37,738 nucleotides of DNA from Bacilli bacterium (GCA_017512495.1 JAFWGF010000034.1:1-37738), one strand, 5' to 3'. Positions 10,039 through 37,738 are shown, numbered from the stretch's first letter. Translations and numbers: made by a program. Notes: generated from the letters alone by a model not told the origin.

Positions 10039-10767
10039 ATGATAGAATTTATAATATGTGAAGATGAAAAAGACTTCAGAGTTAGATATGAACAAATATC
10101 TGAACAAGTTATGATGAACTATGATCTAGAATACAAGATTAATAGTTATAGTGAATATTCATCAAAATGGAAACAACAAATTAATAGTAATAGTTTTAAA
10201 ATTTTTATTTTAGATTTAAAAACAAAACAAGGTTCTGGTTTAGATGCAGCTAGATATATTAGAGAAGAACTTGATGATTGGCAATCTATGATTATAATAG
10301 TAACAGCTTATCCAGAATATAAATATGAAGCATTAGGTAAAAGATTAATGTTAGTTGATTTTGTTTATAAATTAGATGATTATGAAAACAGATTGAAGAA
10401 TGCTATAAATATAAGTTTAAAGAATTTTGATAAAAGACCTAATAAATTAAAATATACCTATAAGAAAGTAGTTTATAATATTGATTATCAAAAGATAATT
10501 TATATAGAAAAAGAACAGGATAATAAAAGATGTATTATTAGAACTAATACTAAAGATTATTATATTCAAGGTAATTTAAATCAAATAGAAAAATTATTAG
10601 ATAAGAGATTTATAAAGTGTAATAGAAGCTATATTATTAACTTAGAGCAAATAGAAGCATACGATACTAAAACTAATATATTAACTTTTAAAAATGGTGA
10701 AACATTATATGCCGTATCTAGAAACAAGAAGAGGGAGATAGTTAATTATGTTAGGGGTATTAGTTAA
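10039..10767 (+). CDS. agrA: AgrA-like LytTR response regulator
   Basis: A receiver domain (about 1-125) has acidic pocket residues in ICEDEKD, the phospho-acceptor Asp59 in FILDLKTKQGSG, a Thr in VTAYPEY and a Lys in VYKLDD. The LytTR DNA-binding domain (about 140-242) ends with CNRSYIINLEQIEAY and SRNKKREIVNYV. LytTR regulators of the AgrA type bind paired direct repeats and activate their own signalling operon. It overlaps the kinase gene by 20 bases, so the two are translationally coupled. Assignment to agr rests on the adjacent agrC, agrB and agrD genes. Confidence 0.9.
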   Translation: MIEFIICEDEKDFRVRYEQISEQVMMNYDLEYKINSYSEYSSKWKQQINSNSFKIFILDLKTKQGSGLDAARYIREELDDWQSMIIIVTAYPEYKYEALGKRLMLVDFVYKLDDYENRLKNAINISLKNFDKRPNKLKYTYKKVVYNIDYQKIIYIEKEQDNKRCIIRTNTKDYYIQGNLNQIEKLLDKRFIKCNRSYIINLEQIEAYDTKTNILTFKNGETLYAVSRNKKREIVNYVRGIS

Positions 10768-12046
10768 TGCTATCTGTGCTTTTATACTTGCTTTATCAGG
10801 ATTTTATATTATAAAAAAGATTACTAAAAGTAATGAAAAGATAGATAAGAGAAAGATAATAATTCTCATGATTAATGCTTTTTCTATTGCGATTATACGT
10901 ACTGCTGAATATAATTCTATATCTTCATTGATAAGTTTTGTAATAAATACACTTACTTATAAAGTGTTATTTCATGAAAGTATAGAAAAAGCTGCTATTG
11001 CAACCGGATTACTATCATTAATTGTTGTAAGTGCTGATGTTATTTTTTCAGTAACTCAATTGATATTAGTACCTTTAGCAAAGACATATAGTGACTATGT
11101 CACATATTTTATAAGTAATATGATAATAGTCATATTATCGCTTATTATAATTAGTATAAAACCTATCGAAAGTCGTATGAATAAATTCTTTATAACATTA
11201 TCCAAAAAAGATTTAAAGATAAATGTAATTTTTATATTATTTATCATGATTATTATTAGTTTCTTTGTTTATAATGTGATTATTAATTATCAATTTAATA
11301 GTAAGTTTCTAAGTGATATTATTGTTATTGGTTCAGCGATATCAATAGGTATAATATTTATTAGTAATAAAGAAACTTATGATAAGTTATCAGATGAATA
11401 TGATGTTTTACTATCAAGCGTTCAAAATTTAGAAGAATGGATAGAAAATGAACAGTTTATTAGACATGAATATAAAAATCAATTAGCTGTTTTATATGAA
11501 TTATCAGGTGAGAAAGATGTTAAGAATAAAATTCAAGAAATTATAGATGAAAATTTAAATATTAATAGTGAAGTTATTACTAACCTAACAAATCTTCCAA
11601 AAGGTGGTTTAAAAGGCTTAATATATTATAAAACTATAGTAGCAAAGAATAATAAAATTAATATTACTATTAATACTAGTATTAACACTAAAGGAATATT
11701 AAATAAACTCAATAAGAATCAAATTACTACTTTGTCTAAATTAATTGGTGTATATCTTGATAATGCTATTGATGCAGCTAAAAAAAGTAGAAAGAAAATA
11801 ATATTGTTAGAAATATACGAATTAAAGAATAGAGTAAATATTGTAATATCCAATACATTTAATAAATCTAGTTTAGTAGAAAATCGTTATGATAAAGGAA
11901 TTACAACTAAAGGAGAAGGTCATGGACAAGGTCTATACTTTGCTAGAAAGATATTAAATAAGAATAATTGGATTGAAGAAAAACAAGAGATTATAGATAA
12001 TTATTATATTGAAACTATAACAATAAAAAACACCTCTAAAAAATAG
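10748..12046 (+). CDS. agrC: AgrC-like sensor histidine kinase
   Basis: The N-terminal 205 residues hold about six or seven membrane helices, the usual peptide-sensing module. The cytoplasmic part carries the phospho-acceptor His240 in FIRHEYKNQLAVLYEL, typical of HPK10 kinases, then the N-box LDNAIDAAKKS and the G-box GITTKGEGHGQGLYFARKI. The 432-residue length matches AgrC. It probably detects the cyclic peptide encoded at 12060-12182. The start lies inside the regulator gene after GAGGGAGAT. The final codons form the 5' arm of a terminator shared with the convergent agrBD transcript. Confidence 0.9.
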   Translation: MLGVLVNAICAFILALSGFYIIKKITKSNEKIDKRKIIILMINAFSIAIIRTAEYNSISSLISFVINTLTYKVLFHESIEKAAIATGLLSLIVVSADVIFSVTQLILVPLAKTYSDYVTYFISNMIIVILSLIIISIKPIESRMNKFFITLSKKDLKINVIFILFIMIIISFFVYNVIINYQFNSKFLSDIIVIGSAISIGIIFISNKETYDKLSDEYDVLLSSVQNLEEWIENEQFIRHEYKNQLAVLYELSGEKDVKNKIQEIIDENLNINSEVITNLTNLPKGGLKGLIYYKTIVAKNNKINITINTSINTKGILNKLNKNQITTLSKLIGVYLDNAIDAAKKSRKKIILLEIYELKNRVNIVISNTFNKSSLVENRYDKGITTKGEGHGQGLYFARKILNKNNWIEEKQEIIDNYYIETITIKNTSKK

Positions 12047-12058
12047 AAGTGCTTTTTT
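12025..12058. terminator. Bidirectional terminator between agrAC and agrBD
   Basis: CACCTCT (12031-12037) faces AGAAGTG (12045-12051), with six A before and six T after. On the minus strand all seven pairs form (one G-U); on the plus strand one pair is a C-A mismatch, so it should stop agrBD more strongly than agrAC. Confidence 0.7.
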
Positions 12059-12059
12059 A

Positions 12060-12182
12060 TTAATCTAAATTTAAGTTAGTAGCATTAGGTTCATCAACAA
12101 TAAACCAAACACATCCCATACTAGCTGCTCCAGTAGCAAGTACTGCAACTGCAGCTAATAATTTAGCTAATCTCTTTTTCAT
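12060..12182 (-). CDS. agrD: AgrD-like autoinducing peptide precursor
   Basis: This 40-residue ORF encodes a basic, amphipathic leader (MKKRLAKLLAAVAVLATG), then AASMGCVWFIVDEPNATN and a short polar tail. Clostridial-type AgrD peptides have an Ala-rich leader, a five-residue ring C-x-W-F-x and an acidic, Pro-containing tail; CVWFI followed by VDEP fits. The expected product is a thiolactone ring closed between the Cys side chain and the Ile carboxyl, with a short N-terminal extension. AAAGGAGG lies 7 bases before the ATG, and agrB is 37 bases upstream on the same strand. The exact cleavage points are not visible. Confidence 0.92.
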   Translation of the reverse strand: MKKRLAKLLAAVAVLATGAASMGCVWFIVDEPNATNLNLD

Positions 12183-12219
12183 ACTTTACCTCCTTTACTA
12201 CAAAATACTATTAATATAA

Positions 12220-12807
12220 TCAATCCCTATTTTTATAATTATTGTACTTTAAACCGAGTAGTTTATAACTTAAGGGATTTATCATAATAGTTTCTATTAT
12301 TAAAGAACATAAGATTGGTACTCTAATACTTTTAAAGTATAGAGCTAATACAAAGAAAATAATACCAGCTATAACTGAACTTATTTTTCTAATAACTCTC
12401 TTTTTTTTATTAGTTAAAGGCCTTTTTTCAGTATCACTAGGAGCAAACATTATAAATGATCCGATAGCTATAATAGAAATAAGTATTATTAAATATTTAT
12501 TAATTGATATATGTAAAAATATGTAAGGTAAAACATTAAATTGAGATATAGATATTATTAGACATTGCCAGCTTTTCTTAGCATGTAGTCCAAAGGCAAA
12601 GAATCTTAAAATATTAAAGAACAGTAAAGTTAGGATAATTGTCTTCAAATAACCAAAAACATAACCTAAAAGCAAAATAATTATTACTTTACTAATTGTT
12701 AAATAAATACCTTCTATACCATATTTAATTTCTAATAATTCATAATCTGTATGATTGGTATTTTTCTTAATAAAATTAAAAGTACTATTAACAAATAAAT
12801 CATTCAC
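12220..12807 (-). CDS. agrB: AgrB-like peptide-processing membrane protease
   Basis: AgrB cuts the AgrD C-terminus and forms the thiolactone. The family's catalytic pair is present seven residues apart, His75 and Cys82 in FAFGLHAKKSWQC, and the conserved loop APSDTEKRP follows. Five or six hydrophobic segments are visible. I place the start at GTG 12807 (195 residues), since GGTGG lies just upstream; in-frame TTG (12819) and GTG (12816) would add three or four residues. The gene is transcribed toward agrD and converges on agrAC. Confidence 0.92.
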   Translation of the reverse strand: MNDLFVNSTFNFIKKNTNHTDYELLEIKYGIEGIYLTISKVIIILLLGYVFGYLKTIILTLLFFNILRFFAFGLHAKKSWQCLIISISQFNVLPYIFLHISINKYLIILISIIAIGSFIMFAPSDTEKRPLTNKKKRVIRKISSVIAGIIFFVLALYFKSIRVPILCSLIIETIMINPLSYKLLGLKYNNYKNRD

Positions 12808-12823
12808 AAGTACCACCAATCAA

Positions 12824-20770: not shown

Positions 20771-21863
20771 ATGGATATCAAAGAAATAGAAAGAAATTTA
20801 GATAACGATTTAGAAATAATCAATAATTTATGGGGGTCACTTTGACATTCCAAAGAAAAAGAAAGATTTAGAAGAAATTCAAAAGCAAACAGAATCTACT
20901 GATTTCTGGACTGATAGAGTAAAAGCAGAAGATACTATTAAGAAGATAAATGATCTAAAAGAAGAAATTAATAGTATTGAATCGTTACAAGAAGAAATAA
21001 AAAGTACTAAAGAAATGCTTGAATTAGTAACAGAAGATGAATCATTACTTGAAGAAATAAGTAAAAGTACTAAGGAAATTAATGAAAAAACCGAATCATT
21101 AAGTTTATTAATCATGTTAAATGGTCCATATGATAAAAATAATTGTATTTTAGAAATACATCCGGGAGCAGGAGGAACTGAATCCTGTGATTGGGCTAGT
21201 ATGTTATATAGGATGTATACTAGATGGTGTGAGAAAAAGCATTATAAAGTAACAGTTCTTGATTATCAGGATGGAGAAGAAGCTGGTATTAAGAGTGTAT
21301 CTTTGATGATTAAAGGTAATAATGCATATGGTTATTTAAAAAATGAAAAAGGTGTACATAGATTAGTTAGATTATCACCATTTGATTCTAACAATCGTAG
21401 GCACACTTCGTTTGCTTCTGTTGAAGTAACTCCAGAGATAGAACAGGATACTGATATTGAAATAGATGAAAAAGATTTAAAAATAGATGTTTATCGTTCA
21501 ACAGGAGCTGGTGGACAAGGGGTAAATACAACAGATTCAGCGGTTAGGATTACTCATTTACCTACTAAGATAGTAGTGACTTGTCAGAATGAAAGAAGTC
21601 AAATTCAAAACAAAGAACAAGCACTTAAAATTCTTAAAAATAAATTGTTAATACAAAAAATAGAAGAAAATGAACAAGAAATGAACAAAATTAAAGGTGA
21701 ACAAATGAATATAGACTTTGGTTCACAAATAAGAAGTTATGTCATGCATCCATATTCAATGGTTAAAGATCATCGAACAGGAGTAGAAACTAGTAATGTT
21801 TCAAAAGTAATGGATGGAGATTTAGATATGTTTATTGAAAGTAACTTAAAGAAGGGGCTATAA
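20771..21863 (+). CDS. prfB: Peptide chain release factor 2, programmed +1 frameshift
   Basis: RF2 ends translation at UGA and UAA. The first 24 codons run from ATG 20771 to CTT (20840-20842), followed by an in-frame TGA (20843-20845). A +1 shift over T20843 resumes at GAC 20844 and continues to 21863, giving about 363 residues, close to other RF2 proteins. The shift site reads TGGGGGTCACTTTGAC, with an internal SD-like GGGGG before CTT-TGA-C, the classical autoregulation signal: low RF2 favours the shift. SPF (in LVRLSPFDSNNRR) and GGQ (in TGAGGQGVN) confirm RF2. AGGTGATAAT precedes the start. Confidence 0.97.
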
Positions 21864-27408: not shown

Positions 27409-29361
27409 ATGTCATTTAATTTAGTATCTAATTATAAACCTAGTGGAGATCAACCTAAAGCTATCAGTGATTTAGTAGAAGGTTTAAATACAGGTAAAAA
27501 ATATCAAGTGTTATTAGGTGCTACTGGAACTGGTAAGACATTTACTATTGCAAATGTAATTAAAGAGACTAATAAGCCAACTTTAGTATTAGCTCATAAT
27601 AAGACATTAGCTGGTCAATTATATAGTGAATTAAAAGAATTATTCCCAGATAATCGAGTAGAATACTTTGTATCATATTATGACTATTATCAACCAGAAG
27701 CATATGTACCATCTACTGATACATATATTGAGAAAGATTCATCAATTAATGATGAAATAGATGAATTAAGGCATGCTGCTACTTCTGCATTGATATCTAG
27801 AAGAGATGTTATTGTAGTATCAAGTGTATCTTGTATTTATGGTATAGGAGAAGTAGACGAATATAAGAATAAAATGCTAACTTTATCGGTAGGAGAAAAT
27901 ATTGATCGTAATGATATGTTAGCTAAGTTAGTAGAAATGTTATATGAACGCAATAATATGGATTTTAAGCGTGGAACTTTTAGAGTTAGAGGAGATGTAG
28001 TAGAAATAATTCCGGCTAATCATAATACTACAGGTTATCGTATTGAGTTCTTTGATAATGAAATAGATCGTATTAGTGAAATAGATACTTTAACTGGAGC
28101 TATTACTAATAATTTAAAAAATGTATCTATCTTCCCGGCTAGTCACTTCGTAGTTAGTGATGAAAAATTACAAGAAGCAATTGGTAGAATAAAAGAAGAA
28201 TTAAAAGAACGTTTAGAAGAACTAAAGTCTCAAAATAAATTGCTAGCTGCAGAAAGACTAGAACAAAGAACAAATTATGATATAGAAATGTTAGAAGAAA
28301 CTGGGTTTTGTTCTGGCATAGAAAACTATTCTGCACCACTTGCTGGTAGAAAAAAAGGAGAAACACCTACTACTTTGATGGATTTCTTTCCAGAAGACTT
28401 TTTATTAGTAGTAGATGAATCACATGTAACATTACCTCAGGTTAGAGGAATGTATAATGGAGATAGATCTCGTAAACAAAATTTGGTAGATTATGGTTTT
28501 AGATTACCTAGCGCTCTAGATAATAGACCGTTAAAATATCAAGAATTTGAAGATAAAATTAATCAAGCCATCTTTGTATCTGCTACTCCTGGAGATATTG
28601 AACTAGGCTATACAAATAATAAATATGTAGAACAAATTATTAGGCCTACAGGTTTATTAGATCCAACTATTGAAGTACGTAAGAGTGAAGGACAAATTGA
28701 TGATTTAGTAGCTGAGATAAAAGAAAGAATAGATAGAAACGAAAGAACTTTAGTTACTACACTTACTATTCGTATGGCTGAAGAACTTACTAATTACTTG
28801 AAAGAGTTAGATATCAAAGTAGCTTATCTTCATAGTGAAGTAAAAACATTAGAAAGAATGCAGATAATTCATGATGTAAGAGCAGGTAAATATGATTGTT
28901 TAGTAGGAATAAACCTATTAAGAGAAGGATTAGATATACCAGAAGTTAGTTTGATTGCTATATTAGATGCTGATAAGGAAGGATTCTTAAGAAGTACAAG
29001 GAGTTTAATTCAAACTATTGGTAGATGTGCAAGAAATTCTAATGGACATGTAATTATGTATGCTGATAGAATGACAGATTCTATGAATGAAGCTATTACA
29101 GAAACTAATAGACGTAGAACTATTCAAGAACAATATAATAAGGAGAATAATATTGTTCCAGAGACTATTAAAAAGGATATTAGAGATGTTATTAGTAATA
29201 CAGCAGTTACGGATACAAAGAAACCAAAACAAATTAGTAAATTAGAAAAAGAACAGATTATGGAAACTATTGAACAAGAAATGAGGGAAGCAGCAAAATC
29301 CCTTGATTTTGAAAGAGCTATGGAATTAAGAGATATCTTATTTGAAATGAAATCTAATTAA
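27409..29361 (+). CDS. uvrB: Excinuclease ABC subunit B
   Basis: UvrB verifies DNA damage and recruits UvrC in nucleotide excision repair. Walker A is [11 protein letters not shown] (about 36-45). The DNA-clamping beta-hairpin is [20 protein letters not shown]. The helicase motifs [10 protein letters not shown] and QTIGRCARN follow, and the C-terminal UVR domain is in [17 protein letters not shown]. The 650-residue length is usual. GAGGTGATAAT precedes the ATG. uvrA, which commonly follows, is absent; a terminator and an unrelated surface locus follow instead. Confidence 0.97.
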
Positions 29362-29536: not shown

Positions 29537-30256
29537 ATGAATGATGGAGGCGTTGGTGTTAAAGCCAACAAGGTATATAAACGCAAGCTGGTAGTTAGAA
29601 TAGTTAAAATCACTTTATTATTATTACTAATCACTATCTCAACTATATATCTATTTTTGTATGTTGCCTATAAAGGTGGAAGATTTACAGTTTCCTTAGA
29701 TAAGAATATGTCTAATCGAAAAAATATCTTTTTAACAGAAACAGGTAAGCAAAACAGTAGAACTAGAGAATTGGCTGCGGAAACTATTGATTATATGGAT
29801 AACATATCAATCAAATGGTTGCCAGAAAACTTAGATACAGAAGCCAATGGATCTCATAATGGTGATAACTACATAGCTTATAGTTTCTATATCGTAAATA
29901 ATGGAAAGGAAACAGTACATTATTGGTATGAATTAGATATTGATGATACTATAAGAAATGTAGATGAGGCGATTAGAATTATGGTTTATCACAATGGAAA
30001 GCCTACCGTTTATGCTAAAAAAAGCAAAAAAGATGGTAAGGCAGAGCCTGGAACTAAAAAATTCTATTCAAAAGATACTGCCTTGTTAGAGCAAAGGAAA
30101 AATTTCAAACCTAACACGAAGGATCATTTCACAGTAGTAGTTTGGATTGAAGGAGACGATCCAGAGTGCTTGAATGACTTATTAGGTGGAGAAATAAAAA
30201 TGCATATGGACATAACTGAGGAACATATCTCAGGAACAGGAAAAGGAGGAGCGTAA
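29537..30256 (+). CDS. Membrane-anchored TasA-like surface protein
   Basis: This 239-residue protein has a basic N-terminus and one hydrophobic segment (about 22-42), then an extracellular domain. The C-terminal region, VVVWIEGDDPECLNDLLGG, matches the same region of the next gene product (LWVEGQDYDCENN), as does the alternating beta pattern before it. That relation, together with the SipW-type protease in the cluster, suggests a TasA/camelysin-like beta-sandwich. There is no AWFT-type signal, so it may stay anchored and serve as a fibre base or initiator. It has a single Cys. The start at 29537 is preferred over one 24 bases upstream because GGTGATGAT precedes it. Confidence 0.6.
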   Translation: MNDGGVGVKANKVYKRKLVVRIVKITLLLLLITISTIYLFLYVAYKGGRFTVSLDKNMSNRKNIFLTETGKQNSRTRELAAETIDYMDNISIKWLPENLDTEANGSHNGDNYIAYSFYIVNNGKETVHYWYELDIDDTIRNVDEAIRIMVYHNGKPTVYAKKSKKDGKAEPGTKKFYSKDTALLEQRKNFKPNTKDHFTVVVWIEGDDPECLNDLLGGEIKMHMDITEEHISGTGKGGA

Positions 30257-30257
30257 T

Positions 30258-31274
30258 ATGGCAAAGCGCAAAGAGTCTAAAAAAGAAAACAAAAGAAAAA
30301 GAAAGATATTATTAGCATTATTACTTGTAGTATTTACAGGAATTATTTTAACTGCTAATACTTATGCATGGTTCACATCAAATAAAACTATTACAGTTGA
30401 TGCAATCGATGTACAAGTAACTACTGCCAATGGTATCCAAGTATCTACAGATGCTACTAACTGGAAGACAGTAATTACAAACACTGATTTAAACAACACA
30501 TTATTGGCTAGTACATTATATCCAACAAATACAAATCAATTACCATTTAAGAGTTCTAATGCACAAATAGCACCAGTTTCAACAGGTGGAACTGTTACTA
30601 GTGGTAAGTTAAAAATGTATTTAGGTGAATTAGGAACTGATACAAATGATAATAAAGTATTAACAGCAACAGCAGAAACTGATACAAAAGGTGCTGTTGG
30701 AAACTATGTAGCATTTGACTTGTTCTTCTTAGTTACTCAAAATTCAGTAGTTAAGTTAGGATCAGGATCTTCTGTTACAACTTCAACAGGAGCTACTAAT
30801 AAAGGATTAAAGAATGCCGCACGTGTTGCATGGATTAATGAAGGAAGTGCTAGTGCCGGAGATGTTACTTCTGCACAAGGATTAGCTAATGGAAGTACTG
30901 CACTTATCTGGGAACCAAATAATAACGTTCATACAGATGCAGCTATTGCAGATGCTTTATCTACATATGGTGCAACTATTACAGGTACTACACAAGTTGC
31001 AAATTATTATGGTGTAGATGCAGCTATCGCTACTCCAGGAGTAGCATTATACAACCTTAATCCAGGAACAAGCTTTAAACAAGTAACTCCAGGATTAAAG
31101 ACACAAGATGGAGCATTAACTGCTGATCAAAACTGGTTCTCATTGAATGCTGGAATCACTAAGGTTAGATTCTATCTATGGGTTGAAGGTCAAGACTATG
31201 ATTGTGAAAACAATGCTTCTGGTGATGCAATTAGCTTCAATATGAATTTCGTATTACAAGATAATAATCCATAA
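30258..31274 (+). CDS. SipW-dependent TasA-like fibre subunit
   Basis: A strongly basic N-terminus, a hydrophobic core and TANTYAWFTSNKTITVDAI form the signal type cut by SipW in TasA-class proteins; by analogy cleavage falls after Ala37. The mature part (about 300 residues) is rich in Thr, Ser, Asn, Ala and Gly. Its C-terminal LWVEGQDYDCENNASGDAI shares a signature with the preceding protein, including the only Cys. Likely a secreted filament subunit. AAAGGAGGAG, inside the end of the preceding gene, gives strong initiation, and a terminator after it would raise its level over downstream genes. Confidence 0.78.
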   Translation: MAKRKESKKENKRKRKILLALLLVVFTGIILTANTYAWFTSNKTITVDAIDVQVTTANGIQVSTDATNWKTVITNTDLNNTLLASTLYPTNTNQLPFKSSNAQIAPVSTGGTVTSGKLKMYLGELGTDTNDNKVLTATAETDTKGAVGNYVAFDLFFLVTQNSVVKLGSGSSVTTSTGATNKGLKNAARVAWINEGSASAGDVTSAQGLANGSTALIWEPNNNVHTDAAIADALSTYGATITGTTQVANYYGVDAAIATPGVALYNLNPGTSFKQVTPGLKTQDGALTADQNWFSLNAGITKVRFYLWVEGQDYDCENNASGDAISFNMNFVLQDNNP

Positions 31275-31293
31275 GATTAATAAAATTAATTCA

Positions 31294-31317
31294 GGGCCTT
31301 CATTTGAAGGCCTTTTA
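31294..31317 (+). terminator. Terminator after the fibre subunit gene
   Basis: GGCCTTC (31295-31301) pairs perfectly with GAAGGCC (31306-31312) around ATTT; the T tract (TTTTATT) is moderate, so partial read-through is plausible. Confidence 0.75.
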
Positions 31318-31334
31318 TTCTAGGGAGTGAGAAA

Positions 31335-31658
31335 ATGGACAAACTAAGTAGTTTTAATAATGAAGAATTACTAGAAGTATATGATAAAATTCAAGAAGAA
31401 ATAAACCACTTAAATGAAAATATAATTGTTGAGGAAGAAGAAGTAGAGCAACCTAAAGAGGAAAAAGCACCTGAGGAAGAAAAATCTGCTGAATCAAAAA
31501 ATGAAGAGGAAACAACTGAAGAAGAAAGCTCAGAAGAAGAAAATTCTCAAATAGAATCAGATGAAGAATCTGATGAAGAAGAAAATTCTCAAATAGAATC
31601 AGATGAAGAATCTGATGAAGAAGAAAAAGAAGAAAACGGGGAAGAAGATAATGAGTAA
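31335..31658 (+). CDS. Highly acidic low-complexity protein
   Basis: This 107-residue protein starts with a short helix (DKLSSFNNEELLEVYDKI) and continues as a Glu/Asp/Ser tract with no signal peptide. Two perfect 14-residue repeats, EEENSQIESDEESD, are encoded by a 42-bp DNA tandem repeat. The function is unknown. It overlaps the next gene by 8 bases, so the two are probably translated together and may work as a pair. GGGAGTGAG precedes the ATG. Confidence 0.7.
   Translation: MDKLSSFNNEELLEVYDKIQEEINHLNENIIVEEEEVEQPKEEKAPEEEKSAESKNEEETTEEESSEEENSQIESDEESDEEENSQIESDEESDEEEKEENGEEDNE
31533..31616 (+). repeat. 42-bp tandem repeat, two perfect copies
   Basis: Copies at 31533-31574 and 31575-31616 appear identical, and a third begins for about 11 bases. 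The unit is 14 codons long, so copy-number change would keep the frame. Confidence 0.85.
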
Positions 31659-33288
31659 AGTAGATGAAAGTGATTTAGTATTAGAAATAGCCTCAATAAA
31701 TGATTATATTGATAATTTTGAATTGGAAAGAAAAAGTGGTACAAAAGCATTAAAAAAGAAGTTTCATAAAGAAGCTGTAGAAGGAAGAAATGCATATATT
31801 AAAGATAAAATAGATTTATATGAATCTAATAAAAGAATGGTACTTCTTGAGTTAGAAAATAGATGCAATGTCTTGCTACCTTTAAACAAAAATGAGAGTT
31901 ATAAAGAAAGAAAAGAAAAACTAGATGAATTACAAAGTTTACTAATTTATAAAAACCCATATATTAGTAATAACTTTAAACTAGGATTCTATAATTTGAT
32001 TTATGCTATTAAAGAAGATACATCTTTAACAGAATTAAATGATATTTTAGATAAGTATGTAGCTATATTTAATAAAATGAGTGTTGTCTTAACTGAAAAT
32101 GATTTTTCATATACAATGCATACTAAAGATTATTTTGATACTTATTTTAGCACTACAGAGGAAGCTAATAGAAAAGAAAAGTTTGAAAAAGTATATTGGG
32201 AATGTCCTAAATTAGTATTAGAAATAAGACAAAGCTTACTTTCTATACTAAAGAAGTATGAGAAAAATATAGATGCTTATACTAAAGTTAGAGAAGTAGA
32301 ATTGCTTAAAGAAAATGATGTTGATTTAAACAATGTTGAAGAAGTATATAAATTAACTAGAAAATCGTTGGAAGAAGACATGCAATGTGATGAATATAAT
32401 ATTTTAAATGACTTCTTACAAGGAACTCACAGTATAACAGATTATTTAAAAGATTCAGCAGTTAGAACTAAAGTATATGATTCCTTTGTCGTTGAAGGAA
32501 CTTATCAAGATTTATCAGTAGAAGCTAAATTAAAATTTAATGAAAATATTATGGATTTATATAATACTTTGAACATTTTGAAGAAATATTATAAATACGA
32601 ATATATAATTACTGATTTAATAGCTAAATACAATGATAGAGCTAATGTTAAAGGTTCTTTTGGTAATGTAGAGAAAGAATTAGATAAAGATAATAAAGAA
32701 AGAGAAAAATTAAACAAAGAGTACTTAAAAAGTTGTGGAATAGGCTTATTTGCTAAAGAAAGTGTTGATAAACAAAACTTAGCAAAAGTTAAAATGAATG
32801 AATTGTTTGATAAGACAATTACTGATTTTAATGCTTATGATGAAGCTAAAATATCTATGGACTTAGATAAGCATTTAAAAGAAGGTGCAAATGTTCATGA
32901 AATGCTTATGGTAGCTTTATCTTCATTCTCTTATTTAGTAAGAGCTTTAACTGAAATAAATAAGGAAAATCCAGAATTTGATTTAGAGAAAGAAGTTAAG
33001 GATTATATTGATTTTGTATATGATCCAAATGCTAGTTTCCTAGATGGTATATTTGTTTTTAATAATCTTGATATAGCTGAAGCAATTAATAAAAAATATC
33101 ATCTTTTAGGTATTAATATTACTAAAGAAAAGATTGATAAAGAAGTAATAGATAGCTTATTAAGTGATGTTTCAGTAATTTGTTTAATTCAATGTATTGA
33201 GAATAATCCACTATCTATGGAAAATATTAAATTTATTTGTGATTTTAATAAAATAAAGCCATTTAATATAGAAGAAAATTTAATATAA
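31651..33288 (+). CDS. Large helical cytoplasmic protein of unknown function
   Basis: I do not recognise this 545-residue protein. It has no signal peptide or membrane helix and is predominantly helical and charged, with possible coiled-coil stretches (KFHKEAVEGRNAYIKDKID and KELDKDNKEREKLNKEYL). Its position between the fibre genes and the signal peptidase suggests a cytoplasmic role in assembly or regulation. ATG 31651 is chosen over an upstream in-frame ATG at 31603, whose Lys-rich extension is only the acidic repeat read in another frame. Confidence 0.68.
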   Translation: MSKVDESDLVLEIASINDYIDNFELERKSGTKALKKKFHKEAVEGRNAYIKDKIDLYESNKRMVLLELENRCNVLLPLNKNESYKERKEKLDELQSLLIYKNPYISNNFKLGFYNLIYAIKEDTSLTELNDILDKYVAIFNKMSVVLTENDFSYTMHTKDYFDTYFSTTEEANRKEKFEKVYWECPKLVLEIRQSLLSILKKYEKNIDAYTKVREVELLKENDVDLNNVEEVYKLTRKSLEEDMQCDEYNILNDFLQGTHSITDYLKDSAVRTKVYDSFVVEGTYQDLSVEAKLKFNENIMDLYNTLNILKKYYKYEYIITDLIAKYNDRANVKGSFGNVEKELDKDNKEREKLNKEYLKSCGIGLFAKESVDKQNLAKVKMNELFDKTITDFNAYDEAKISMDLDKHLKEGANVHEMLMVALSSFSYLVRALTEINKENPEFDLEKEVKDYIDFVYDPNASFLDGIFVFNNLDIAEAINKKYHLLGINITKEKIDKEVIDSLLSDVSVICLIQCIENNPLSMENIKFICDFNKIKPFNIEENLI

Positions 33289-33289
33289 A

Positions 33290-33317
33290 AAATAGGAAAC
33301 AATAGTTTCCTTTTTTT
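33290..33317 (+). terminator. Terminator before the signal peptidase gene
   Basis: AGGAAAC (33294-33300) pairs with GTTTCCT (33305-33311), followed by T residues. Confidence 0.8.
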
Positions 33318-33326
33318 ATGTATGTA

Positions 33327-33335
33327 TGTTATAAT
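33327..33335 (+). promoter_or_regulatory. Extended -10 promoter of the signal peptidase gene
   Basis: TG-T-TATAAT lies 28 nt before ATG 33364, so the peptidase and the adhesin can be expressed apart from the fibre genes. Confidence 0.6.
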
Positions 33336-33363
33336 TAAATAAGAATAAAATGGAGTCGTGTTT

Positions 33364-34614
33364 ATGAAGAAGATAAAAGCAATCTTAAAATACATTTTTT
33401 ATAGTTTCCTAATCTTTTTAGTAGGATTATGCTGTTATGTATTCGTATGTTTAGATATCTTACATAAGGATTATGTTAATATCTTCGGATATACATATTT
33501 TGTTGTGGTTAGTGGATCAATGTCTGGTGAAATAGAAGTAAATGATATTGTCATAGTAGATATAACTAAAGATGTTCATGTTGATGATATCATAGCTTAT
33601 AAAAGTGATAAATCAATCGTAACACACAGATTAGTACAAAAGAACGGTAATAAGTATATAACTAAAGGTGATATGAATGATACTTATGATAAGGCTATCA
33701 CTAAGAAAGATATTATTGGAAAGATAACTTTTGTATTATCTCCTAAATTCTTATTGGAATTCGTTGTTTTGGTATTTATTATTCTAATAGTTTTAGCACT
33801 GTTAAACTTCGATGGAGTATTTAAAAAGCTATTTAAAATAGAAGATAAAGAAATAGTTCGTGAACATAAAAATGTTTTACCACAGGATATTTTCTGTAGT
33901 CCACAAGATAGAAATAACTTTGATGAACATTCAGGTTTAACAATTACAATTCCAATGAATGAGTTAAAGGATTTGAAAAAGTTACTTCAAAAAGAACAAG
34001 ATGCATCAGATAGTGTTGAAGTACTAGATGATACTCCTGAAGTTGAAGTGTTAGATTTAGAAAATGATGATATTTATAAGACTCCAAATGACCAAGAATT
34101 AAAAGAAGAAGAAATATATAATATTGTAGATGTTGTATTAAAAGTAAATAACGGAGCATTAGAAACTACACATTTAACTAAAGAATGGCAAAAGAAATAT
34201 ATTTATATTTATAAATTATGCCTATATATTCAAAGTGGTAGATATGACTTATTAGATAAAGCTATTAATGATGTGCCATTTAAAGAATACTTTGATTATG
34301 ATATTGATAAAGTTGGTTTATATAAGGAACTAAGAAATAAAATTTATGATTTACCAATTTATGTCTTCTTAAAAATACTATTTATCGCAATATTATATAA
34401 TGATGCTCATTTCTTTGATGGAGTATTTAAGATATTGAAATATAAGGTTTTAGTAGATAAAAACAATTCATTTGTAGTAGTTAAAGAAAAATATGATAAG
34501 AAGAGATTAAAAGCTTTAATTAACTTCATGGAAAGGGTGTCTAAAAAATATAATAAAAATGATAATTTAGACTTGAATAGAGAGAAAAAACTAGTAGATA
34601 TAAGTAATTATTAG
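33364..34614 (+). CDS. sipW: SipW-type (ER-type) signal peptidase with C-terminal extension
   Basis: An N-terminal helix (about 9-31) is followed by the catalytic domain: the Ser nucleophile in VVSGSMSGEIEVND (Ser52) and, instead of the usual bacterial Lys, a His in VTHRLV (His88), as in ER-type/SipW enzymes. GDMNDTYD supplies the conserved Asp. A second helix (about 125-148) follows. SipW proteins end near 190 residues; this one has about 416. The extra 260 residues are charged and cytoplasmic by topology, with an acidic linker and a helical domain I do not recognise. ATG 33364 is 8 bases after GGAG; GTG 33358 is too close. Confidence 0.88.
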   Translation: MKKIKAILKYIFYSFLIFLVGLCCYVFVCLDILHKDYVNIFGYTYFVVVSGSMSGEIEVNDIVIVDITKDVHVDDIIAYKSDKSIVTHRLVQKNGNKYITKGDMNDTYDKAITKKDIIGKITFVLSPKFLLEFVVLVFIILIVLALLNFDGVFKKLFKIEDKEIVREHKNVLPQDIFCSPQDRNNFDEHSGLTITIPMNELKDLKKLLQKEQDASDSVEVLDDTPEVEVLDLENDDIYKTPNDQELKEEEIYNIVDVVLKVNNGALETTHLTKEWQKKYIYIYKLCLYIQSGRYDLLDKAINDVPFKEYFDYDIDKVGLYKELRNKIYDLPIYVFLKILFIAILYNDAHFFDGVFKILKYKVLVDKNNSFVVVKEKYDKKRLKALINFMERVSKKYNKNDNLDLNREKKLVDISNY

Positions 34615-34631
34615 TTTATAAGGAGGTACAC

Positions 34632-37600
34632 TTGAAAAAGAGATTTTTAACAATAGCGTTAACAATTGTTTTTCTTGCGGTTTTCAGTGTAGCCTTCTTT
34701 TTCATTTACACAAATAAATCCGTATTAGGAGAACAAACAGATGTGATTTGGGATGGTAGTACTGTTGCTACCAGTTTTTCTGGTGGAAACGGAACTAAAG
34801 ATAACCCATATTTAATTAGAAATGGTGAGGAATTAGCATATTTAAAGAATGTTTTAGATAGCGAACAAGCAGAAGGTTATAAGGGCTTGTATTATGAATT
34901 AACTGCTGATATTAATTTAGGAAGTCATGATTTAGGACCAATTGCTTTAGATACAACATTTAGTGGAACCCTTGATGGAAAAGGACATGTTATTAAAAAT
35001 GTATCTATTACTGGAGAAAATGATTCAGAAAAAGATAATTATTATGGGTTATTTGGTAATATTGATAATGCTAAAATTAGTAATTTAAATATTGACGGAA
35101 TGAAAATTACTGTAAAAGGTGCTGGAGTAACTTATCTTGGGGCTTTAGCAGGTAAAGTAAATAATGAAACAGAAACTAAGAATAGTATTACTAATATTTC
35201 TCTTAAAGGTATTGAAATTGATTTAACAGAAGCTGAATTAGCAGAAGAAAGTAATGTTGGAACAATTATTGGTGAAATAGGTACTAATTATGAGATAAGA
35301 AATATTGTAGTATATGGAAGTATTAATGCTTCTTCGAACGATTATATTTCTAAATTAACTAATATGACTAGTTCAGATATAAATAATGTTGTTTATGATA
35401 TAAAAAGCGAATTAGAATTACAAAAAGAAGAACATAAAGAAGAAACAAAAATTGAAAATGTTTATGAATTTAAAGATAATAAATACTATTTAGGTGAAGA
35501 AGAAAAAAGCTTGGAAAGCATTCTAGTTGCATTTAATAAAGAATTAAATGATTACAAATGGGAATTGGTAGAGGACTATTTAAAACTAAGTACTATTCCA
35601 GAAGAAAAACAAGAAACAGGAACACCTACACAAGCTATGGGTGGAACTAAAGGTTTGAGAAGTGCTGCTATAAGTATTCATGATACTGGGATAGATACAG
35701 CTGCAAAAACAGCATATATTAATGATTTAACTAGTGATTATAATTACTATATGGGACTTAATTATACAGGGGGAGGAACTGTAACTACAGCTCCTACTGG
35801 TAATAGTTATAATTTATATAGTGATACTAATTTAGCTAAAATATATATTGCCTATAAAGGTAGTATGATTGATAGATCTAGTACAGTTGGTTATGTATCA
35901 ACAACTGAACAAATATCAGATTTTGTTTATTATAAGTATTACCCAATCAAAGATGGTTATGTTACTATCCCATTAATTGATAATCCTTATGCTGATAGAC
36001 CAACAGATTTAGCTTTTAATGGATGGATTACTGATTATGCTGGTGCTGTTGTCAGTTTAGATACTGATGATTATACAAGATATGTTAAAATACCAGCGCC
36101 AGCTGATCCAACTGCCGCAACAAGTATTACTATGTATGCTACATGGACAGAGGCTACTGCTATTGTAGCTAGTGTAAGCAACAATAACTTATCTACTACT
36201 GGTTTAAAAAGTGTTGGAATGAATCCAATTGCTACAAGAACACCAATATATGGTAATTTACCTACTCTATATTCTTATAATAGTATGAGTAGTGGTACTA
36301 GTAATCAAGGAACTTATTATCCAAATGGAGCAGTTTCTAATACAGGTGCTAGTTTAAATGGACAACGTTGTACTCGTATTGACCGTTGGACACCTAGAAC
36401 ATGTTACTATTATTTGGTTGTTCCAGAGTCAGATCTAGTTGCAGGAACTACTTATTATCAATTGCTTAATGGTAATATGCAGAGTTACACTTTAACTCCA
36501 ACAGGTTATCAAATGAATTCTTTCTTAAACGATGGAGAGGTTTTAGCAGGTTATTTTAAAAAAGGAGTGCCTGCAGGATCTTTAGTTGGTTACTATAATG
36601 ACTCAGGAGTAATTCAAACTAGTGGAAGTTGTACTGGAAATACATGTAATAACTATTATGAATTATTACAGTATGATGCTTCAAATGTATTTTCTTCAAC
36701 TAATTATGATTATTATTATTTAACTACAAGAGATACTAATATTGCTTATCTAACTAGTGATATTAATGGCTTTAATAATAGTGTTCCAGTAACAGTTACA
36801 GGTATTCATAATCATACTAATCGAAGTACTTATGATGTAGATTTAAGTGAAAGATCTATAAATGCTGGTGCTGATCTTAGAATAGAATATGTAAGTTTAT
36901 ATACTGGTCAAATAGAACCAGCTACATCTGGAGCAGCAAATTCAAATTATAATTATATTTATGGCAACTATCATAACTTAAAAATTGGAAGAGGAATACC
37001 AATTAGTGAAGGTAGTTATCAAAGTGGAGGATCATGGTATAATCCAACGTATAGTGATGGATATTATGATAATGCTAGAGGTGTTGTTGGAGGAAAAAAT
37101 AGTGGTACTGGTAGTGCAGGAACTCCTTCTAAATATACTTTTATTGTTGAATCTGGTTATTACAATTCAATAAGTAGTATAACAACAACAAGTGCTAGTG
37201 GAACATATTATGTAGATGCTACTGCTATTTATGGATCTGATTTTGATAGAATAACTAATACTAACAATAAATTAGGGGTATATTATAATGCAACTACAAC
37301 TTATGGTGGAACAATTAGAGCCGGAACTGACAAACCGAAATATATGACTACAATCATTAAAAGCGGAAAATTTGGTGAGGCTACTACAGAAGCTGCTTCA
37401 GGAGTTTATGTCGGTGGACTAACTGGTGGTACTATTTATTCACCTGTAGAGTTGATTGTTGAAGGTGGAGACATCTTTAATATCAATGGTGGACCGTTAG
37501 TTAGTAATTCTGTAAAAGCTAATAATATTATTTATATAAATATCAAAGGTGGAAATACTGACTTTATCTTTGGTGGAGCGGCCCTTAGTACAACCTATGG

Positions 37601-37738
37601 AAACCGTATTATTAGTGTTACTGGCGGACAAATAGATTATTCTGTCTTTGGTGGATCTAATGGTACTGCCGGTGGAAATGGTGATGGTACTCTAGATGGA
37701 GATTCATTTATCTATATTGGTGGAGATGCTGTTATTGG
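34632..37738 (+). CDS. Giant repetitive surface protein (3' end outside the window)
   Basis: The frame is open from TTG 34632, with AAGGAGG 6 bases upstream, to the window edge: at least 1035 residues. An N-terminal signal or anchor (about 6-27) is followed by FSGGNGTKDNPYLIRNGEEL, a module common in Gram-positive adhesins, and GLUG-like repeats (YYGLFGNIDNAKISNLNIDG, about residue 137). Near 440-510, LAFNGWITDY through SITMYATWTEA resembles a Listeria-Bacteroides (Flg_new/InlB-B) repeat. The later part is rich in Gly, Thr, Ser and Tyr, with GG-spaced strands suggesting a beta-helix. It probably acts in adhesion. The anchoring signal lies beyond the window. Confidence 0.82.
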   Translation, partial: MKKRFLTIALTIVFLAVFSVAFFFIYTNKSVLGEQTDVIWDGSTVATSFSGGNGTKDNPYLIRNGEELAYLKNVLDSEQAEGYKGLYYELTADINLGSHDLGPIALDTTFSGTLDGKGHVIKNVSITGENDSEKDNYYGLFGNIDNAKISNLNIDGMKITVKGAGVTYLGALAGKVNNETETKNSITNISLKGIEIDLTEAELAEESNVGTIIGEIGTNYEIRNIVVYGSINASSNDYISKLTNMTSSDINNVVYDIKSELELQKEEHKEETKIENVYEFKDNKYYLGEEEKSLESILVAFNKELNDYKWELVEDYLKLSTIPEEKQETGTPTQAMGGTKGLRSAAISIHDTGIDTAAKTAYINDLTSDYNYYMGLNYTGGGTVTTAPTGNSYNLYSDTNLAKIYIAYKGSMIDRSSTVGYVSTTEQISDFVYYKYYPIKDGYVTIPLIDNPYADRPTDLAFNGWITDYAGAVVSLDTDDYTRYVKIPAPADPTAATSITMYATWTEATAIVASVSNNNLSTTGLKSVGMNPIATRTPIYGNLPTLYSYNSMSSGTSNQGTYYPNGAVSNTGASLNGQRCTRIDRWTPRTCYYYLVVPESDLVAGTTYYQLLNGNMQSYTLTPTGYQMNSFLNDGEVLAGYFKKGVPAGSLVGYYNDSGVIQTSGSCTGNTCNNYYELLQYDASNVFSSTNYDYYYLTTRDTNIAYLTSDINGFNNSVPVTVTGIHNHTNRSTYDVDLSERSINAGADLRIEYVSLYTGQIEPATSGAANSNYNYIYGNYHNLKIGRGIPISEGSYQSGGSWYNPTYSDGYYDNARGVVGGKNSGTGSAGTPSKYTFIVESGYYNSISSITTTSASGTYYVDATAIYGSDFDRITNTNNKLGVYYNATTTYGGTIRAGTDKPKYMTTIIKSGKFGEATTEAASGVYVGGLTGGTIYSPVELIVEGGDIFNINGGPLVSNSVKANNIIYINIKGGNTDFIFGGAALSTTYGNRIISVTGGQIDYSVFGGSNGTAGGNGDGTLDGDSFIYIGGDAVI

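Follow-up and report, generated by a model that had tools for sequence, protein, structure and literature searches.

A conserved gene island of a Bacilli bacterium joins a McrBC-type GTPase pair to SipW-type signal peptidases and TasA-like proteins and may assemble or control surface fibres

Introduction

GTPases of the McrBC type are known as DNA-restriction enzymes, and to our knowledge the assembly of TasA-type fibres outside the cell has no known energy source. Two described systems come closest to the gene set reported here. One is the tapA-sipW-tasA operon of Bacillus subtilis, in which TapA has been proposed to donate the first strand to TasA (PMC9674648). The other is CoCoPALM, a class that Bell et al. 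introduced by name in 2024, in no more than a few sentences (PMC11090510), and that is defined, in the passages concerned, by an McrB GTPase of the NxD (not NxxD) type, an FtsB-like transmembrane and coiled-coil region, a DUF2357 partner and proteins of the signal peptidase family. The subject of this paper is a gene island that begins in contig C37 (37,738 bp; the whole of this stretch is called the window below), one of the 51 contigs of the 1.37-Mb assembly of a Bacilli bacterium (GCA_017512495.1). The island encodes an McrB-like GTPase (B) with its McrC-like partner (C), three SipW-type peptidases and two proteins, m and M, that had been described as TasA-like. With a confidence somewhat better than even, we incline to the reading that it specifies a membrane GTPase system for the assembly or control of surface fibres of the donor-strand type.

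Results

A reading of the window from sequence alone (the sequence-only reading) had placed six genes together on one strand at positions 29537-37738, and each of the six open reading frames was confirmed there, on the plus strand (Table 1). They encode m, M, a small acidic protein, a 545-residue protein (P4), a SipW-type signal peptidase (S1) and a giant secreted protein (G), whose gene is cut internally by the contig end at 37738. The start of contig C16 overlaps the window from 37149 to 37738 over 590 bp, of which 563 are identical (95%), and the reading frame of G continues across it. The join of C37 to C16 is well supported, short of proof by a spanning read; the mismatches in the overlap resemble differences between strains, and such variation would account for the contig break as well. 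The joined island measures about 21.5 kb and lies between uvrB, in the window, and uvrA (C16:14084 on), the window holding its first third (the 5′ part). Its order is m, M, the acidic protein, P4, S1, G (about 2,611 residues), S2, two small secreted-type proteins, a 325-residue secreted-type protein, A (341 residues), B (513), C (362), S3, a SipW-type protein (253) and a small SipW-type protein on the opposite strand, then uvrA; ten of these genes stand between G and uvrA on C16.

The association of B with the secreted proteins was assessed in 58 genomes of the window's family and in 392 genomes of its phylum. In the phylum sample m was found in 47 genomes, B in 79 and both in 46, and wherever the two lay on one contig they were on the same strand and within about 15 kb (42/42). 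In the family sample P4 was present in 15 genomes, M in 17 and B in 19; all 15 genomes with P4 also had M (Fisher p = 5e-12, ignoring phylogeny), the two usually being adjacent, and B was present in 16 of the 17 genomes with M (Fisher p 2e-10, again ignoring phylogeny). Scanning 84,980 species genomes gave 299 relatives of M, most of which, to judge from the titles, belong to uncultured Bacilli from the gut and rumen of animals. Locus counts were taken from the best 79 of these 299, and counts of downstream genes from the 55 with at least 9.9 kb of downstream DNA. The m gene was immediately upstream of M in 60 of 69 loci; in the 55 downstream stretches P4 was present 53 times, a signal peptidase 52 times and G 51 times. 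Several other families show the succession m, M, S (a SipW-type peptidase), B, C, S, small SipW-type proteins, giant protein. Because the m-B linkage extends over the phylum, the order recurs across families and P4 is confined to the window's family, the core of the system is m-M-S-B-C plus the giant protein, with P4, A and the acidic protein being more local.

In B of the window genome, one hydrophobic segment (near residues 55-85) is followed by a coiled-coil-like stretch and an AAA+ domain. Its best sequence match in the PDB is Escherichia coli McrB (E 1e-5), residues 58-128 give a sub-threshold match to Pfam FtsL (E 0.013), and no modified-base-binding Pfam domain was found at the N-terminus. 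Among 40 full-length homologues, the strongly hydrophobic N-terminal segment, the motif GISGTGKT and the motif GTINNDD (NxD) were each present in all 40, and LDEMN in 38. C adjoins B in 26 of 28 cases. The window-genome protein matches PF09823 (DUF2357, the McrC N-terminal domain) with 41.8 bits against a cut-off of 23.3, and DUF2357 was matched by 18 of 18 C homologues, in which no nuclease family was found. In an alignment of 45 C sequences no D/E column is conserved beyond residue 112 and conservation ceases altogether past residue 268 of 362, with no conserved PD-(D/E)xK site in the C-terminal part. C had no match among PDB sequences, though its Pfam match to DUF2357 is clear.

B and C also occur elsewhere. 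Four variant loci (L198-L201, in G032, G035, G045 and as a second locus of G037) carry an A-like gene, B and C together with a different membrane protein, X, and no SipW or TasA-like genes were found in these stretches. The X protein combines a single transmembrane-like segment with numerous DxDxDG-type repeats, and its C-terminal part appears on inspection to be rich in beta structure; beside the G037 locus lie genes that, also by inspection, look like Tad/CpaF pilus genes. The occurrence of B-C with X and A-like genes suggests that the pair serves surface structures more generally, as a module that supplies energy or exerts control. Beyond the family, some B homologues, for example in G121, G398 and G182:C1, lie in longer frames (600-930 residues) that point to other architectures.

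M carries a putative SipW-type signal and m does not. The signal region of M ends TYA/WF, with the A and the W invariant in 14/14, and scores 16.7 bits against the SipW-cognate signal model TIGR04088, just under the cut-off of 19. In m, a conserved membrane segment without an AxA-type cleavage motif is followed by GxFTVxLD (33 homologues, 48 invariant columns), and this anchor looks uncleaved. The two proteins have in common the C-terminal motif W.EG.D..C. Mature M, of about 301 residues, was predicted by AlphaFold2 (AF2) to be mostly beta (predicted local distance difference test score, pLDDT, 87; predicted template-modelling score, pTM, 0.89). The top matches of this model in VIA fold comparison were FimA pilins (Z 5.1), the TasA fibre 8AUR (Z 5.1 over 145 residues, root-mean-square deviation 4.6) and the Sulfolobus 0406 thread 7PNB (Z 5.0), with the TasA monomer (Z 4.0) and the Pyrobaculum bundling pili 7UEG (Z 3.6) further down. 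That the best matches of the predicted structure are donor-strand fibre subunits is suggestive of a fibre identity for M. An assignment of M by sequence to TasA or to any solved structure was rejected, the only matches being two to phage/tailocin fibres at chance level. In one locus (L089, G054:C10:7437-17545) M stands in seven tandem copies ahead of P4, the largest number in any locus read, and such an array could be a source of variable fibre subunits. By analogy with TapA, m is a candidate for the base or initiator of a fibre.

S1 scores 54.2 bits against TIGR02228, the endoplasmic reticulum (ER)/archaeal type of signal peptidase (cut-off 51.85), falls below the SipW equivalog NF046067 (43.1 bits; cut-off 190) and keeps the Ser-His dyad (SGSM...THR); 44 of its homologues have 370-480 residues. 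Besides the peptidases S1, S2 and S3 and the protein M, the island encodes other SipW-type substrates. All 21 clusters examined, each with three or four SipW homologues, contained two intact copies and at least one that lacked both the catalytic Ser and the catalytic His. Short reading frames account for a few of the dead copies, which makes this count approximate, but the double loss recurs in full-length copies. Two other loci of the window genome (L109, G000:C31, and L106, G000:C38) hold SipW-like peptidases with several small secreted-type proteins (signals YAALSATLNI or similar) and neither B nor C; these are apparently separate SipW systems.

The remaining proteins are less constant or less readily classified. 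In profile-profile comparison only A matches the A-like genes of the variant loci and the SipW-fusion tails; the fusion of a SipW domain to A, seen in five relatives, ties A to the peptidase. The AF2 model of P4 is all-helical (pLDDT 92, pTM 0.83). Profile searches gave no convincing family for P4 and the PDB no convincing fold; its structural matches consist of long helices only, a common arrangement, and were set aside. A kinship of P4 or A with each other, with C or with the S1 tail was likewise dismissed, there being no profile-profile support. P4 was found in 8 of the 392 phylum genomes, all in the window's family, which rules it out as a core component, and on sequence comparison it is a lineage-specific addition to the class-wide core. 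Homologues of the acidic protein are limited to a few relatives (L119, L120, L144, L129 and L160), and it is not a core component as judged from this distribution. G has an N-terminal signal or anchor followed by Gly/Asn/Thr-rich repeats of the VYGGGN type, and neither LPXTG, a C-terminal anchor nor a Pfam match was seen in the joined protein. The small SipW-type proteins matched no informative family in NCBIfam; their iterated profiles spread across all of the TasA-like proteins, probably on account of the shared signal region, and no family assignment was based on the resulting groupings.

The features of the window are collected in Table 1. The two terminator-like hairpins suggest at least three transcription units, and a single operon of six genes was rejected in view of these hairpins between units, the contig break within G and the continuation of the island on C16. 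In the congener G013, the gap between uvrB and uvrA is 1.1 kb and contains only a radical-SAM-like gene (by inspection), and no match to P4, M or B was found in that genome; in G056, the cluster genes are on contigs other than the one with uvrB and uvrA. The presence of the island is thus patchy and its location variable.

Table 1. Positions of island genes and of other features in the 37,738-bp window
Feature	Coordinates	Strand	Basis or remark
LytTR-type response regulator	10039-10767		By inspection
Histidine kinase	10748-12046		By inspection
AgrD-like peptide, 40 residues, CVWFIVDEP	12060-12182	-	By inspection
AgrB-like protein	12220-12819	-	By inspection
uvrB, left island border	27409-29361	+	Right border is uvrA on contig C16
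m, small TasA-like protein with N-terminal membrane anchor	29537-30256	+	Homologue alignment
M, major TasA-like protein, predicted fibre subunit	30258-31274	+	Signal TYA/WF; AF2 model
Terminator-like hairpin 3′ of M	31293-31314	+	9 pairs, 5 GC, then T-rich tail; consensus match only
Small acidic protein, variable Glu/Asp-rich tail	31335-31658	+	Open reading frame; homologues in few relatives
P4, 545 residues, all-helical, predicted cytoplasmic	31651-33288	+	Start overlaps the 3′ end of the acidic protein gene
Terminator-like hairpin 3′ of P4	33294-33311	+	Consensus match only
S1, SipW/ER-type signal peptidase, C-terminal tail of about 240 residues	33364-34614	+	TIGR02228
G, giant secreted Gly/Asn/Thr-rich beta-repeat protein	34632-37738 (contig end)	+	Full length via C16

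Two observations concern other parts of the window. Positions 10039-12819 hold what appears by inspection to be a complete agr-type quorum-sensing set, and the release factor 2 (RF2) gene at 20772-21863 has a likely programmed frameshift, where GGGGGT followed by CTTTGAC at about 20832-20847 fits the usual RF2 site.

Discussion

A membrane GTPase system for donor-strand-type fibres could operate as follows. M would be exported and cut after TYA by an active SipW-type peptidase, and would then polymerise outside the cell by donor-strand-like exchange, with m supplying the first strand at the membrane, as has been proposed for TapA with TasA. G and the smaller SipW-type proteins may decorate or tip the fibre. 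B, with its one transmembrane helix, coiled coil, intact Walker A and B motifs and NxD signature, might form a ring at the inner face of the membrane that is driven by nucleoside triphosphate (NTP) and activated by C, the hydrolysis of nucleotide being coupled to export, to peptidase access or to fibre growth. A and P4 would serve as cytoplasmic adaptors, and the catalytically dead SipW paralogue as a scaffold or a substrate receptor. We advance more tentatively, as a proposal that may well prove wrong, the stricter form of this model, in which a membrane-anchored McrBC-type GTPase ring and the SipW peptidases, one of them a dead scaffold, constitute a dedicated nucleotide-driven machine for donor-strand fibre assembly. 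Such a route would differ from the chaperone-usher, type IV pilus and sortase pathways and from the self-assembly of TasA, and would be a non-immune use of the McrBC fold.

Several points weigh against the fibre model. Filaments, NTP hydrolysis by B and contact of B with S, m or M are all inferred from genes and predicted structures, and the Fisher values ignore phylogeny. Of the 79 genomes with B-like matches, 33 lack m, which implies another job for part of the GTPase family; many of the matches in these 33 cover the AAA+ part only or sit in longer frames. The fold match of M to TasA is weak, a Z of about 5 being classed as weak in the notes to the tool and possibly reflecting a common beta-sandwich arrangement, and Foldseek found no match to the M model with E <0.001. 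The TasA/camelysin model PF12389 had no match in the whole genome, with a B. subtilis control positive.

Three other explanations were weighed. The indecisive structural match of M to TasA, together with the anchor retained on m and the presence of B-C beside the non-SipW surface protein X, would be accommodated if M, m and the small proteins acted singly in a SipW-dependent surface layer or adhesin display that forms no polymer, B-C being a quality-control ATPase for the secretion machinery; the tandem expansion of M in G054 (seven copies) and the donor-strand character of its best fold matches favour a polymer instead, and we regard this explanation as unlikely. One could also envision an anti-phage system resembling type IV restriction, in which phage nucleic acid is recognised or cut by B-C at the membrane while the secreted proteins prevent or detect adsorption. 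In its favour, B is a homologue of McrB and matches the PADLOC candidate-defence model PDC-M26A (E 4e-37), the passages on the kindred CoCoNuT systems predict a role for these in defence (PMC11090510), and the island is patchy, being absent from G013. Yet no nuclease or DNA-binding family was found in B or C, no restriction or methylase genes were recognised by inspection in the clusters read, and the constant partners of the pair are secreted structural proteins and signal peptidases, which makes defence the more improbable account of the two. That a tapA-sipW-tasA-like operon merely lies beside unrelated genes might be argued from the hairpins that divide the region into several units and from the narrow conservation of the acidic protein; it is contradicted by co-occurrence and linkage over many families, with m lacking B in just 1 of 47 genomes, and we consider chance hardly credible.

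The sequence-only reading had proposed that the six genes might be an undescribed, dedicated export and assembly system. Its dedicated character stands, in that linkage reveals a conserved and co-inherited set whose genes are not scattered among relatives but usually adjacent or linked; the fibres and the motor are putative. Its membership shifted: the P4 gene keeps company with M within the family and is not part of the class-wide core, the acidic protein gene is real and falls outside that core, and the giant gene is real as well, though cut by the window end, the label adhesin being a guess. As to two TasA-like proteins, M has its putative SipW-type signal and a mostly beta model whose weak TasA match ties with FimA, whereas m has an uncleaved-looking anchor; PF12389 matches neither. 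The GTPase pair, which lies outside the window, the dead SipW paralogue and the lineage-specific status of P4 were absent from that picture. The word undescribed was too strong, given that the combination of B-C with a signal peptidase is named in the CoCoPALM passages (PMC11090510).

Genome linkage over many families of the class joins McrBC-type GTPases to TasA-like genes. If the link is functional, a restriction-type motor would be building surface fibres, which would explain the role of CoCoPALM and would offer a genetic handle on attachment by little-studied bacteria of gut and rumen. Some carriers are represented by single-contig genomes (e.g. G227, G223 and G350), and a culturable host may therefore exist.

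The island can be compared with several known systems. With E. coli McrBC it shares the match of B to the McrB GTPase and of C to DUF2357; it differs in that neither a PD-(D/E)xK nuclease nor a methylcytosine-binding domain was detected, that B is membrane-anchored and that the signature is NxD, not NxxD. The archaeal donor-strand filaments 7PNB and 7UEG and the FimA-type pilins resemble the M model weakly in fold (Z 3.6-5.1), but no sequence relation to them was detected and no usher or chaperone genes were recognised in the clusters read. The likeness to tapA-sipW-tasA lies in a Ser-His peptidase of the ER type beside beta-rich substrates whose signals resemble the SipW type, where m may act as TapA does (PMC9674648). 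The island differs from that operon in that nothing in it matches the TasA or TapA families, that one of its three peptidases is dead and that m retains its anchor; and the operon, as the sequence-only reading had held for the cytoplasmic partners and the giant protein, contains no counterpart to the McrBC-like GTPase pair, P4, A or G. Literature searches on McrB with TasA, SipW or camelysin gave nothing relevant apart from PMC11090510, and no later paper was found. By its described features, the island appears to be a variant of CoCoPALM, a named and unstudied class: B has the NxD signature and an N-terminus with a hydrophobic segment and a coiled-coil-like stretch that may be FtsB-like, C is an McrC-like DUF2357 partner, and SipW-type genes stand in the clusters. 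The CoCoPALM passages speak of the GTPase pair and the signal peptidases only and leave TasA-like substrates unmentioned (PMC11090510). Beyond the description given there, the island brings m, M, the giant beta-repeat protein, the dead SipW paralogue, the SipW-A fusion and P4.

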